Positions 32,607 through 36,176 of a stretch of 64,000 nucleotides of DNA are shown piece after piece; the first letter of the stretch is position 1, and each line of letters starts with the position of its first letter. The notes beneath the pieces were generated by a model that worked only from the letters and a program-made list of their open reading frames with translations, did no database searches and was not told the origin of the DNA. Origin of the DNA: Prolixibacter sp. NT017 (GTDB taxonomy: Bacteria > Bacteroidota > Bacteroidia > Bacteroidales > Prolixibacteraceae); assembly GCF_009617875.1 (NCBI RefSeq), contig NZ_BLAV01000001.1, positions 744,001 through 808,000 on the forward strand, read 5' to 3'. The position numbers were made by a program, and so were the translations under genes.

Positions 32607-32965
32607 AGTTAAACTATAAAAAGCTTTGGAGCTACGCCCTTTTTATATAGAACGAAATGTGAAAATAAAATATTACCGGGGAGAAAGAGAAGGGAACACC
32701 TTTTGATGCTGATGTTTGTAAGGGGTTGATATATAGGGAAGGACTTAGTTATTTGCTTTTTAATTTATAATGGATTTAAATAATATGGCGCAATGTATAT
32801 AACTGTCGCAGATTGGAAAAAATGAAAAGCCGTTGTTATGAAAGAATGATGGCGGTTACGGGTCGCTTGTTTTACAGGGTAGAACTCGTATATAGTCAGA
32901 TTAACTCTTGTTTAGATTGACTCTTAACGATATAATGATTAAGTTAGGCTATCATTTTGGTTCAA

Positions 32966-32981
32966 CCGGGCGATCGCCCGG
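32966..32981. repeat. Perfect palindrome CCGGGCGATCGCCCGG
   Basis: Sixteen bases, fully symmetric around GCGATCGC. No T run follows, so it is not a normal terminator. It lies about 290 bases upstream of the holin-like gene and could be a dyad operator or a recombination/restriction target. Confidence 0.7.
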
Positions 32982-33096
32982 CTAGCCACAGACAGAAAAC
33001 AATAGCATCAGTTTTACGGGGGAAAAAAAGAAAACAACCGGAATCAACAGGTGATTCCCGGCTGAAAGTGACAAGTATAACCTTAAACTGAGACTG

Positions 33097-33219
33097 ATGA
33101 AACGACCGACGAACAACCTTTTAACCCTACTGGGAAACCTCACTCCGGAGGTAACCGGTTCCCGTGTTTATCCTATCAATGAGAAAAATATCCTGCTTAC
33201 TCCGGGCAGGAGAGATTAA
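33097..33219 (+). CDS. Possible 40-aa leader gene of the holin cassette
   Basis: ATG 33097 to TAA 33219, product MKRPTNNLLTLLGNLTPEVT... ending TPGRRD. Codon use and amino-acid mix look protein-like and it precedes the holin-like gene by 34 bases. There is no recognised domain, signal or membrane segment. It may be a real small protein or chance; only conservation would tell. Confidence 0.35.
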   Translation: MKRPTNNLLTLLGNLTPEVTGSRVYPINEKNILLTPGRRD

Positions 33220-33253
33220 GCTGATCAATCGTTTACCTACCAATCCTATACAC

Positions 33254-33889
33254 ATGAAAAAAGACAAGAAAAGCGGCCTGCGAAAGTTGGGCGAAACCTT
33301 GCTCAAAAAAGGCCTTCCCCTGTTAGGGAGCATTGTTACCGGCGGAGCATCCGACCGGATTATTAACCTCGTTAAAGGCGCGACCGGCATCCTCGACGAT
33401 GACCCGGAAGCTATCGAGAAACAGCTGAGCGACCATCCGGAGCTGCTGGTGAAACTGAAAGAGCTGGAAGCCACCAACAAGGTGCAGTTGCAGGAGCTGT
33501 TGCTGCAATCGGCCCGCATCGAACTGGAAGAAACACAATCGTACCTGGGTGATGTGCAGGATGCCCGCCGGCGTGAAATCCAGGTAACCAATGCTACCGG
33601 ACGTCGCGACTGGCTTTTCCTGGCATTAGCCATTATTGTGGTGGTCGGTTTCTTTACGTTGGTGATGATGGCCGTCATCGGTTCGTTCAACGGGAAGACC
33701 TTCTCCACCAACGGAGCCATTAACCAGCTGTTTGGTGCCCTGGTGGCCGGCTTCACCATGGTACTCTCGTACTTCTTCGGCTCCAGCAAAGGCAGTGCCG
33801 ACAAAACGAACCTGATGGAACAGCGCTTCCGGACGCAGCCGACGGTTATGCCCACGACAAACGAACCCTTTACCAACGCAAAAGGATAG
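33254..33889 (+). CDS. Holin-like membrane protein (GTA_holin_3TM type)
   Basis: 211 residues from ATG 33254 (MKKDKKSGLRK); an upstream alternative start at 33164 adds residues unlike the family. Residues 18-45 (LKKGLPLLGSIVTGGASDRI) are the conserved amphipathic start. A charged helical middle (50-118) is followed by two membrane helices at about 119-144 and 155-176 and a polar tail. This is the pattern of the 3TM holins of gene transfer agents and phages, which open the inner membrane for lysis enzymes. The next gene follows after 3 bases. No phage structural gene is nearby. Confidence 0.7.
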   Translation: MKKDKKSGLRKLGETLLKKGLPLLGSIVTGGASDRIINLVKGATGILDDDPEAIEKQLSDHPELLVKLKELEATNKVQLQELLLQSARIELEETQSYLGDVQDARRREIQVTNATGRRDWLFLALAIIVVVGFFTLVMMAVIGSFNGKTFSTNGAINQLFGALVAGFTMVLSYFFGSSKGSADKTNLMEQRFRTQPTVMPTTNEPFTNAKG

Positions 33890-33892
33890 CCC

Positions 33893-34534
33893 ATGGAACT
33901 GCAAGTGATACGGTACAGTACCTCCGGCGAATCGGCGCTGGGGATGCTGCTCATCAACGGCACTTTTGCCTGTTATACCCTCGAAGACCGACCACGGTCA
34001 ACCAAGGTGAACGGTAAAACCGGCATTCCGGCCGGACGCTACCGCGTGGAGTTATACGAACAGGGCCGTCTGCATACGAAGTACCTGGAACGGTATGGTG
34101 CCGATTTCCACAAGGGAATGTTGCACATCGTGGGTGTGCCTGGCTTCGAAGGTATTCTTATTCATACCGGGAATACCGATGACGACACCGACGGTTGCCT
34201 GTTGGTGGGCGATACCTCGCAGGTGAACATTGAGCGGGATGGTTTTATTGGCGAAAGCCGGAAAGCCTATCAACGCATCTACCCGATGATAGCCAACGTG
34301 CTGGAGCTGGGCGAGGAGGTGTGGATAGCCTACCGGGACAGCCTGAACGGCAAGTCCGAACCCGCAGAAGCGGACCAAACGGTGGTGGCCGACCAGCTCA
34401 ACTTCCGCACCTCGCCGGGCGGTAACCGGATGGGGGTGTTGTTCGAAAACACCGGCGTCGAAACCATCGAACACCGCGACGGCTGGTCCCGCATCCACGT
34501 CGAAGGATGGGTGAGCGGTAAGTATTTGGGGTAA
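33893..34534 (+). CDS. DUF5675 protein with C-terminal SH3 domain (probable cell-wall-acting partner of the holin)
   Basis: 213 residues. Residues 1-145 are DUF5675, with ACYTLEDRPR, GIPAGRYRVEL and IHTGNTDDDTDGCLLVG. His91 and Cys102 in the last block recall the His...Gly-Cys arrangement of L,D-transpeptidase-like folds, though that is my inference. Residues 163-213 form a bacterial SH3 domain (LNFRTSPGGNRMGVL, then WSRIHVEGWVSGKYL), a wall-binding module. No signal peptide is seen, so release would need the holin-like protein encoded 3 bases upstream. Confidence 0.75.
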   Translation: MELQVIRYSTSGESALGMLLINGTFACYTLEDRPRSTKVNGKTGIPAGRYRVELYEQGRLHTKYLERYGADFHKGMLHIVGVPGFEGILIHTGNTDDDTDGCLLVGDTSQVNIERDGFIGESRKAYQRIYPMIANVLELGEEVWIAYRDSLNGKSEPAEADQTVVADQLNFRTSPGGNRMGVLFENTGVETIEHRDGWSRIHVEGWVSGKYLG

Positions 34535-34545
34535 AGTCTAACCCT

Positions 34546-34626
34546 TAACGCTGACAGGTCTGACGACGCTGTCAGGTTAAAACAACCGTAGACCTGTCAG
34601 CGTGCAAAGCACCTGACAGCGTCGGA
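34546..34626. repeat. CCTGTCA-type palindromic repeat upstream of the RAYT gene
   Basis: Two inverted halves: ACGCTGACAGGTCTGACG... (34546-34578) and ...ACCTGTCAGCGTGCAAAGC (34590-34625). It closely matches the copy inside the RAYT frame at 34861-34953 and the half copy at 35714-35750. Confidence 0.85.
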
Positions 34627-34860
34627 AAAATAAATGAGCAATGCAAAAAATCGAACCCATCATCTCCGACCGTTTTTATCACATCTACAACCGCGGCATC
34701 AACGGAGAAAATCTGTTTACGGAAGAAGATAATTATCTCCATTTTTTGCGGTTGTACGATAAATACATTCATCCCATTGCCGATACGTATGCGTGGGTGT
34801 TAATGCCGAACCATTTTCATTTGTTGGTGCGGATAAAGGAGAATGTAGCTTATCGGTATT

Positions 34861-34953
34861 CTAACGCTGACAGGTCTAACGACGCTGTCAGGTTTGACAA
34901 TATGAAGTGGGAAACGATTGACCTGTCAGCGTGTGAAACACCTGACAGCGTCA
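34861..34953 (+). repeat. CCTGTCA-type repeat inside the RAYT reading frame
   Basis: CTAACGCTGACAGGTCTAAC... (34861-34894) and ACCTGTCAGCGTGTGAAAC... (34919-34953) repeat the upstream element with few changes. The copy is translated in frame as a linker between the HUH core and the C-terminal half (SNADRSNDAVRF, then DLSACETPDSVR). Confidence 0.85.
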
Positions 34954-35107
34954 GGACTCCTGACCCGAAACGTCATTTCGCTCATTTATTCAACGCATAC
35001 ACAAAGGCCTTCAACAAACGTCACGCCCGCCACGGAGCGCTGTTCGAACGTCCTTTCAAACGGAAGTTGATAACTGACGAACACTACCTGCGGCAAGTGG
35101 TGATTTA

Positions 35108-35420
35108 CCCTGTCAAATCATTTTAAATTTTTCACGATGGAAACTCTCTATTATGTCTATGTATTACGAAGTTTAAAAGATGGTATGAACTATACCGGAT
35201 ATACCCAAAATTTAAAATTAAGATTTGAACAACACACCAAGGGTAAGGTAGAGTCAACGAAAAACAGACGGCCCTTGGTTTTAATCTATTTTGAAGGCTG
35301 CTTAAATCAACAGGATGCGACACACAGGGAAAAGTATTTGAAAACTCACTATGGTAAAATGTATCTAAAAAATAGATTAAAACATTGGCACGATGAGAGT
35401 TCAAATCTTATTTGACGGGG
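35108..35420 (+). mobile_element. Mini-element: GIY-YIG nuclease gene with terminal inverted repeats inside the RAYT
   Basis: Left end CCCTGTCAAATC (35108-35119, with one further base), right end CCCCGTCAAATA read on the minus strand (35409-35420); 10 of 12 bases agree. The only gene inside fills nearly the whole element, and its stop codon lies within the right repeat. Both halves of the interrupted RAYT gene abut the ends, so this is a real insertion. Exact borders are uncertain by a few bases. Confidence 0.75.
35137..35415 (+). CDS. GIY-YIG family nuclease (UPF0213/UvrC-like domain)
   Basis: 92 residues, a single GIY-YIG domain: YYVYVLRS and NYTGYT are the two motif halves, LRFEQH carries the conserved Arg, and REKYLK the metal-binding Glu. 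Short one-domain GIY-YIG proteins of this type (STKNRRPLVLIYFEGC) are common in Bacteroidota, often in several copies. Here the gene occupies an element inserted into a conserved motif of a transposase gene, the behaviour of a homing nuclease. The catalytic set looks complete. Confidence 0.88.
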   Translation: METLYYVYVLRSLKDGMNYTGYTQNLKLRFEQHTKGKVESTKNRRPLVLIYFEGCLNQQDATHREKYLKTHYGKMYLKNRLKHWHDESSNLI

Positions 35421-35620
35421 TAAACCATTCCTTCTGCGATCACCCATTGGGTTATCCCTGGAGCTCTTACGCCGCATGTGTGTCGGTAAAGCCGACCCGG
35501 TTACATCGTGAAGCAGTGGTGGGGTGGTTCGACGACCGCGCCAACTTCATCGCCATGCATCGGCGCAGCATCGACCGGGAAAAGATTGAACAATGGTTGA
35601 AGATAAATGGATAGAGGAGC

Positions 35621-35700
35621 AGACCACTGTCGGGGTCTACGACCACCGACAGGGATTCGCAACCCACCCCGTCAGTGGTCGAAGACCCTGACGGTGGTCA
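35621..35700 (+). repeat. Dispersed palindromic repeat, copy 2
   Basis: AGACCACTGTCGGGGTC...ACCACCGACAGGG...ACCCCGTCAGTGGTC...ACCCTGACGGTGGTCA. It contains two nested pairs of inverted blocks (CCACTGTCGGGG with CCCCGTCAGTGG, and CCACCGACAGGG with CCCTGACGGTGG). Confidence 0.88.
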
Positions 35701-35713
35701 AAGAATAGAACAC

Positions 35714-35750
35714 AGACCTGTCAGCGTGCGAAGCACCTGACAGCGTCGGA
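35714..35750 (+). repeat. CCTGTCA-type repeat, half copy
   Basis: AGACCTGTCAGCGTGCGAAG... to GACAGCGTCGG, nearly identical to the right half of the element at 34590-34625. Confidence 0.8.
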
Positions 35751-35873
35751 AACAAAGAAGAATTAAACCAAAACAACCAAAAACATTGAACCACACCACT
35801 TCCATAACGCCAACCGGTACCATGGCGTTGGTGGCCGGGCCACACCCGGGTGTAACCACTGGTGCTGAGACCC

Positions 35874-36041
35874 CGCTGAGTGGTGAGGATTGTTCGCTAA
35901 GTGGTGGGCGGACTTCGCTGAGTGGTGGGGATCGTTCGCTAAGTGGTGGGCAGACTTCGCTGAGTAGTGGGGATCGTTCGCTATGTGGTGGGCAGACTTC
36001 GCTGAGTAGTGGGGACTGTTCGCTGGGGGGTGGTCGGCATC
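35874..36041 (+). repeat. Second tandem array of eight 21-bp units
   Basis: Units start at 35874, 35895, 35916, 35937, 35958, 35979, 36000 and 36021, alternating CGCTGAGTGGTGGGGATCG and CGCTAAGTGGTGGGCAGAC types, so the real period is 42 bases. Total length is 168 bases, the same as the array at 4994-5161, but the sequence is different apart from the shared TYGCT start of each unit. Confidence 0.88.
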
Positions 36042-36176
36042 CGCCATGACGTGGGCGTGGATGCTGAATATAAAAACGGGGGAAGTGGATGAAATGGTGC
36101 TACTTTGACAGGTCAACACCTGCTACATCCGCTTACCCCCATCGTTAATTGAAATAGAAATTTAAAAGTAAGTAAA

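Follow-up and report, generated by a model that had tools for sequence, protein, structure and literature searches.

A candidate minimal mobile DNA element with a single GIY-YIG nuclease gene in a split RAYT gene of Prolixibacter

Comparison with related genomes indicates that a RAYT transposase gene of Prolixibacter sp. NT017 is split by one block of DNA, which carries a GIY-YIG nuclease gene between short inverted ends (Table 1). The block lies in a 64,000-nucleotide stretch (called the window here; positions are numbered within it) that is contained in a single 5.14-Mb contig. Its relatives are widespread and make up a family of tiny elements that has apparently not been described. The reading we favour, and consider probable, is a minimal mobile DNA element, intermediate between homing endonucleases without an intron and insertion sequences. 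Insertion as a block, matched ends, sense-only orientation, clade-specific hosts and purifying selection on the nuclease, all seen by comparison, support this reading, in which movement is putative.

Table 1. Features of the element and of the interrupted host gene (window positions).
Feature	Position	Strand	Basis
GIY-YIG element core, CCC to GGG, 313 bp	35108..35420	+	locus comparison, junction alignments
Left terminal inverted repeat CCCTGTCAAAT	35108..35118	+	end statistics, pairing with right end
Right terminal inverted repeat, ATTTGACGGGG on the + strand	35410..35420	-	end statistics, pairing with left end
AT-rich leader, 18 nt, left repeat to ATG	35119..35136	+	sequence; too short for a promoter
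TAA inside the element that closes the host frame; the nuclease ATG follows after 10 nt	35124..35126	+	putative termination-reinitiation point
GIY-YIG nuclease gene, 92 aa	35137..35415	+	ORF list; Pfam PF01541, E 2.1e-15
Host RAYT gene 5' part, NHFH motif intact	34641..35107	+	NCBIfam REP_Tyr_transpos; intact genes in G001 and G002
Host RAYT gene 3' part, VNHSFCDHPLGYPWSSY...KING*	35420..35614	+	ORF list, locus comparison

The element and its host gene in the window

A sequence-only reading had proposed a GIY-YIG gene in a segment with inverted ends, and this is borne out. The ORF occupies most of the element. The product belongs to the GIY-YIG superfamily, matching PF01541 and having the conserved Tyr, Tyr, Arg and Glu; Y5, Y19, R29 and E65 are invariant in ten aligned rows, nine of them distinct, and we take these positions of the domain to be catalytic. 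The closest solved relatives by sequence are PDB 1zg2 (E 1.9e-10) and 1ywl (E 1.7e-9), members of UPF0213 that are named as hypothetical proteins only and for which the search gave no sign of mobile ends. The 11-bp ends pair at ten positions, and the mismatch falls on position 4, which is free across the family. When the two flanks of the window copy were shuffled 200 times, an equally good pair arose in 4 cases. Taken alone, the pair is weak to modest evidence, and it is the comparison with relatives that makes the ends real. The border is ambiguous by about 2–4 bases outwards, where the flanks read TTTA and TAAA.

The same reading held that both halves of one RAYT gene adjoin the element and that the break falls at the I-H-x-N-P of RAYT relatives. 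Two genomes of the same genus (G001 and G002) agree on both points. At the same locus, without the element, they have an intact RAYT ORF of 214 and 216 aa, respectively, which reads YIHNNPIHHGF and YIHNNPVHHGF at the insertion place. The two aligned blocks are 27 nt apart in both genomes, compared with 323 nt in the window (35109–35431). The G002 locus (L202) aligns with 32905–35108 and 35432–35758, and the G001 locus (L201) with 34612–35108 and 35432–35604; the latter has more matches on both sides and lacks 33220–34611 further left. These empty sites imply a single insertion with about 15 host nt lost. One block is thus absent from intact homologues, as had been expected, and the absence is not perfectly clean. 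The lost codons are those of I-H-x-N-P, and the NHFH of the HUH motif is retained. PVKSF, which the earlier reading gave for the left side, is not host sequence; it is the element end read in the host frame. The right RAYT part begins VNHSFCDHP... at the GTA codon at 35420 and has one base in common with the element end. A third congener (G003) was considered as one without any RAYT gene, and this was rejected since a more diverged RAYT gene (L180) lies about 1.3 kb further on. Its locus follows the window as far as the REP-like repeat at 34628, and colinearity is missing on the right side.

No decay is seen in the right RAYT part, whose dN is 0.056–0.075 to the congeners against 0.067 between the congeners; this suggests that the insertion is young or that this part is still used. 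The left part is 69–70% identical in amino acids to the intact genes and matches REP_Tyr_transpos with E 2.6e-7, under the curated cut-off of that model. Its dN of 0.17–0.18 (against 0.043) includes poorly aligning REP-like sequence.

REP-like palindromes (CCTGACAGCG type) flank the RAYT gene at 34541–34628, 34862–34955 and 35714–35760, the second of these inside the RAYT open frame. REP-like 8-mers number 30 in the window and 3.6 in shuffles. For RAYT subclass 2.4, parts of PMC6006769 describe REP sequences within the RAYT gene, which the palindromes in the window resemble. The region directly 3' of the RAYT gene (35619–35702) is palindrome-rich; its Rfam matches to mir-552 and MIR1883 are far below gathering scores.

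The word CCTGTCA is common to the element end and the REP-like repeats of this genome. Together with the short size, this would suit a decaying relic that another transposase moves in trans, RAYT enzymes that act on hairpins being one example. We regard such a passenger as very improbable. The nuclease is under purifying selection (see below), the same ends are found in many hosts other than RAYT, and none of the counted REP 8-mers occur in four RAYT-host loci (L004, L036, L038 and L142). Mobilisation by REP/RAYT in trans was rejected, as the word is not tied to the element family.

Terminal repeats and junctions in the family

Relatives were drawn from four sources: 41 near relatives, 18 of them with a match at E <= 0.001; named genomes, with 341 relatives from 433 stretches (best 80 of 341 kept); 395 genomes of the phylum of the window, 38 with a match at E <= 1e-20; and 393 genomes of its order, 14 with a match at E <= 1e-26. 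Family counts cover the fetched loci. An end pair of the window type was present in 108 of 136 distinct GIY-YIG relatives. The 28 without one are mostly distant, and many of them neighbour tRNA genes or lie within RNase P RNA genes; the end search also failed for five that are fairly closely related (L065, L070, L078, L091 and L119). Removal of near-duplicates left 106 elements, of which 103 entered the end statistics (L008, L080 and L124, whose arms were mis-set, were dropped). Among the named records, Bacteroidota and CPR (Moranbacteria, Azambacteria and others) predominate, and a few bins are assigned to other phyla. No relative was found in IMG/VR by a peptide-pattern scan, among PLSDB plasmids at E <= 1e-12 or among INPHARED phages at E <= 1e-8. 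A search of 390 genomes with a strict end-pair pattern found nothing; the pattern is too strict and excludes the window copy as well.

The 11-bp ends follow the consensus YCCNGTNRRAT, with TTYA and TRAA as flanking bases. Ten of the eleven positions pair in 99–103 of the 103 elements despite base variation, part of this complementarity arising by construction because the search accepted only inverted repeats with a short motif. Position 7 pairs in 99 elements (36.3 with partners shuffled, z 13.5) and position 1 in 102 (66.6, z 12.6), while the unconstrained position 4 pairs in 72. At the second base outside the repeats of these elements, left T/C and right A/G pair 24 times against 44 when shuffled (z -4.2), which could be phylogenetic.

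Across positions 1–11 of the 103 elements, the arms hold 5 G-T pairs and 17 A-C mismatches. G-T is not favoured, which points to recognition as DNA rather than to an RNA helix. This bears on a model in which the block is an intervening sequence that is spliced or cut out of the host transcript at its paired ends, leaving the host gene functional. The undecayed right RAYT part, the sense-only orientation and the insertion in conserved motifs would all be in keeping with such removal. We consider it improbable nonetheless: besides the wobble counts, border variation of about 1 nt would often shift the frame, about 15 host nt are absent in the window copy and the nuclease ORF takes most of the element. 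Rfam returned no ribozyme or intron match in 34500–36100; a self-splicing intron or RNA stem is disfavoured by the wobble counts, the imprecise borders and this null result.

Junctions were read by eye from the gaps in 22 DNA alignments to empty relatives or paralogues, mostly of 65–80% identity; for L003 and L035 the empty site is the RAYT gene of the window itself. The bases gained besides CCC..GGG were four in 11 alignments, three in 5 and five in 4. Two junctions were unreadable, one being the window copy with its loss of about 15 nt, and about 5 nt are apparently lost at L126. A fixed target duplication was rejected, since the 3–5 extra nt at readable junctions show no consistent duplication. 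Blunt insertion into TT^AA and a 4-bp duplication with changes both fit the junctions. The variation of the borders by about 1 nt and the loss in the window are unlike a typical transposase product, and they count against the element model.

A direct repeat of the left and right flanks was found in 11 of the 104 elements tested, namely ten epimerase-type copies (L064, L068, L080, L083, L088, L089, L101, L114, L115 and L136) and L127. The repeats align over 28–82 nt, and the copies are offset by about 68–82 nt. In the epimerase-type cases the left copy ends at the element and the gene start is repeated; in L088 and L101 the epimerase frame carries on to the right of the element. We read these repeats as a probable target duplication that spares a needed gene.

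Host genes, orientation and translation

Host genes were labelled with rough baits on sense segments of the 106 elements. A label was obtained in 41: 15 four-helix-bundle genes (23S rRNA IVP type), 12 RAYT, 6 tyrosine recombinase, 6 epimerase and 2 GxxExxY; further epimerase labels were assigned by hand for the tree. The RAYT insertions fall at four points: L|MPNH (L004, L036, L038, L142), LM|(P)NH (L003, L032, L035, L118), NPV|NH or NPVH|H (the window copy, L039, L037) and HP|EYPW (L033). The first two straddle the Met of the L-M-P-N-H (HUH) motif. The points are up to about 100 codons apart and are intermixed on the tree within the RAYT clade. A tree built from 100 proteins requires 2 changes of the RAYT label, against 11.5 when labels are shuffled, and 11 of the 12 rows in the clade of the window are RAYT-hosted. 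The tree has 96 columns and most of its forks are open, and the clustering of labels comes partly from near-copies. One RAYT clade with four intermixed points argues for a preference for a gene family, not for one codon motif.

The earlier proposal that the element targets active-site codons therefore needs restating. The preference for RAYT stands for the clade of the window, which is nearly all RAYT-hosted, and other copies share the inverted ends; the target point is not constant, and other clades sit in unrelated genes. As a side observation, L075 and L077, from two different CPR genomes, have identical protein rows and 305 of 320 aligned bases alike; they lie just before and about nine codons inside the start of seemingly the same gene.

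These data bear on the alternative of a free-standing homing endonuclease of the T4 seg/mob type, which would cut the uninterrupted allele and be copied by homologous repair, its ends being incidental or marks of an ancestral junction. The nuclease gene lies in no intron or intein, as expected of a free-standing enzyme, and clade-specific host genes, insertion in conserved motifs and the lack of a fixed duplication of the kind most DNA transposons make are in its favour. For the T4-type enzymes, sections of PMC2988022 describe homing without an intron, the splitting of nrdA and a stop-start overlap of the form UAAUGA. There, Aeh1 mobE in nrdA, which depends on upstream promoters, resembles our element as an intronless nuclease insertion that can split a gene and in a stop/start overlap that suggests translational coupling (PMC2988022, in part). 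We nevertheless judge homing unlikely. The ends match and co-vary in 103 elements, and one target per lineage is not what the RAYT clade shows, with its four intermixed points. Many hosts are unrelated and some sites are intergenic, where flank homology cannot carry a copy. Unlike seg/mob genes, the elements are in bacterial chromosomes, have conserved matched terminal repeats and measure about 300 bp.

Open frames of at least 32 codons abutting the elements were scanned against Pfam and NCBIfam (E <= 0.001). The 132 segments that are sense to the element yielded matches to 48 Pfam and 219 NCBIfam families, and the 95 antisense segments gave no match in either library. For the 65 unlabelled loci, the longest ORF lying up to 1 kb away on either side was searched at E <= 1e-5. 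Two RHS loci were omitted, so that 115 of 119 ORFs in sense and 97 of 101 in antisense were used; they match 95 (GIY-YIG itself included) and 9 Pfam families, respectively; six sense neighbours match Epimerase. Every recognisable host frame is sense to the element, and the neighbours are mostly sense.

The distance from CCC to the first ATG has a median of 28 nt and is at most 20 nt in 23 of 94 elements, which leaves no room for a promoter in such short leaders. A left match was present for 34 labelled hosts. In 33 of these the host frame meets a stop before the nuclease ATG or within 12 nt after it (21.7 expected at random phase), and in 5 of the 34 the stop ends after the ATG begins. One codon phase, typically read as (Y/H)-P-V-K-stop, is favoured: it holds for 23 of the 36 labelled cases and 14 of the 26 unlabelled ones. 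Pooled, this is 37 of 62 (p 3e-5), and 24 of 43 (p 0.003) once labelled cases are collapsed by hand by host and site; host labels and codon phase are phylogenetically non-independent. The nuclease stop codon starts exactly after the right GGG in 54 of 100 elements. From the short leader and the host stop near the nuclease start, we infer that the nuclease is expressed by translational coupling to the host gene.

For the minimal mobile element that we favour, about 270–350 bp long, the following course may be proposed. The element would insert into or beside transcribed, mostly accessory genes, in sense only and usually with little host loss (about four extra junction bases). The nuclease would drive movement by cutting DNA at its own ends, at the target or at both, and host repair would fix the element copy. 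The nuclease gene would be promoterless, ribosomes from the host gene stopping in or beside the left end and reinitiating at the nuclease ATG. Reinitiation would explain both the orientation and the codon phase.

The nuclease and known systems

The nuclease is under purifying selection, with a median pairwise dN/dS of 0.18 over 1264 pairs of relatives. Pairs of elements within one genome are 98% (G188) and 99% (G754) alike; their host genes are related and the flanks are also 85–95% alike, so gene duplication may be the source of these pairs.

Like insertion sequences, the elements are short and carry one gene between matched terminal inverted repeats, a gene that would serve movement. Unlike them, they are sense-only, have no short fixed target duplication and encode a GIY-YIG nuclease as their sole gene, and no DDE, HUH, serine or tyrosine transposase. 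The suggestion that the window holds a self-contained, nuclease-only insertion with inverted ends is supported by the RAYT relatives without the block and by the ends of the other copies.

A stronger reading, which we put forward tentatively, sees in the family a new class of autonomous transposable element of bacteria, which may be the smallest. A GIY-YIG nuclease acting on short inverted ends would be its only mobility enzyme. Being promoterless, it would be confined to translated operons through termination-reinitiation. Spread would then be tied to host translation, and the copies that survive would be in sense orientation, most of them sharing one codon phase. Where the host cannot lose the gene, a gene-start duplication of about 70–80 bp would leave an in-frame start copy downstream.

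Portions of PMC11270868 report GIY-YIG insertions in the rRNA genes of CPR; these match neither intron group (I or II), and the paper places them outside homing. Our elements resemble them in having a GIY-YIG ORF and no group I/II intron match and in occurring in CPR (PMC11270868, in part); those insertions are at rRNA sites, and the word 'inverted' is absent from the main text. The GIY-YIG superfamily survey asks, in part of its text, whether further members are parasites (PMC1564403). No matching element family was found among the open PMC matches listed, a scope that leaves subscription papers and preprints outside.

If the favoured reading is true, a one-gene element of 300 bp suffices for mobility in bacteria, and homing endonucleases are linked with insertion sequences by a parasite that rides on host translation. 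The family could account for many genes annotated as 'putative endonuclease' or 'GIY-YIG nuclease family protein' (5024 of 5038 candidate proteins match at E <= 1e-10, counted by protein match irrespective of ends) and could explain some broken genes in Bacteroidota and CPR. With the ends defined, such elements can readily be annotated and the question can be put directly to the test.

More distant GIY-YIG genes show other arrangements. The genome of the window has one (L031, G000:C1:671258-671503; E 1.9e-4, 32% identity). Inverted repeats of about 24 bp enclose L134, L135 and L139, which are located at RNase P RNA genes, directly before GGAGGAAAGTCCGGAC-like sequence. Others lie beside tRNA genes (L129, L130, L132, L133, L137, L140, L141 and G003:C1:3371242-3374050). 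Some of these occur in repeated units that also contain an incomplete copy of the tRNA; in that copy, a CCCGCCT..AGGCGGG-like hairpin takes the place of part of the tRNA. G003 has five tRNA-adjacent copies, mostly about 435 bases apart.
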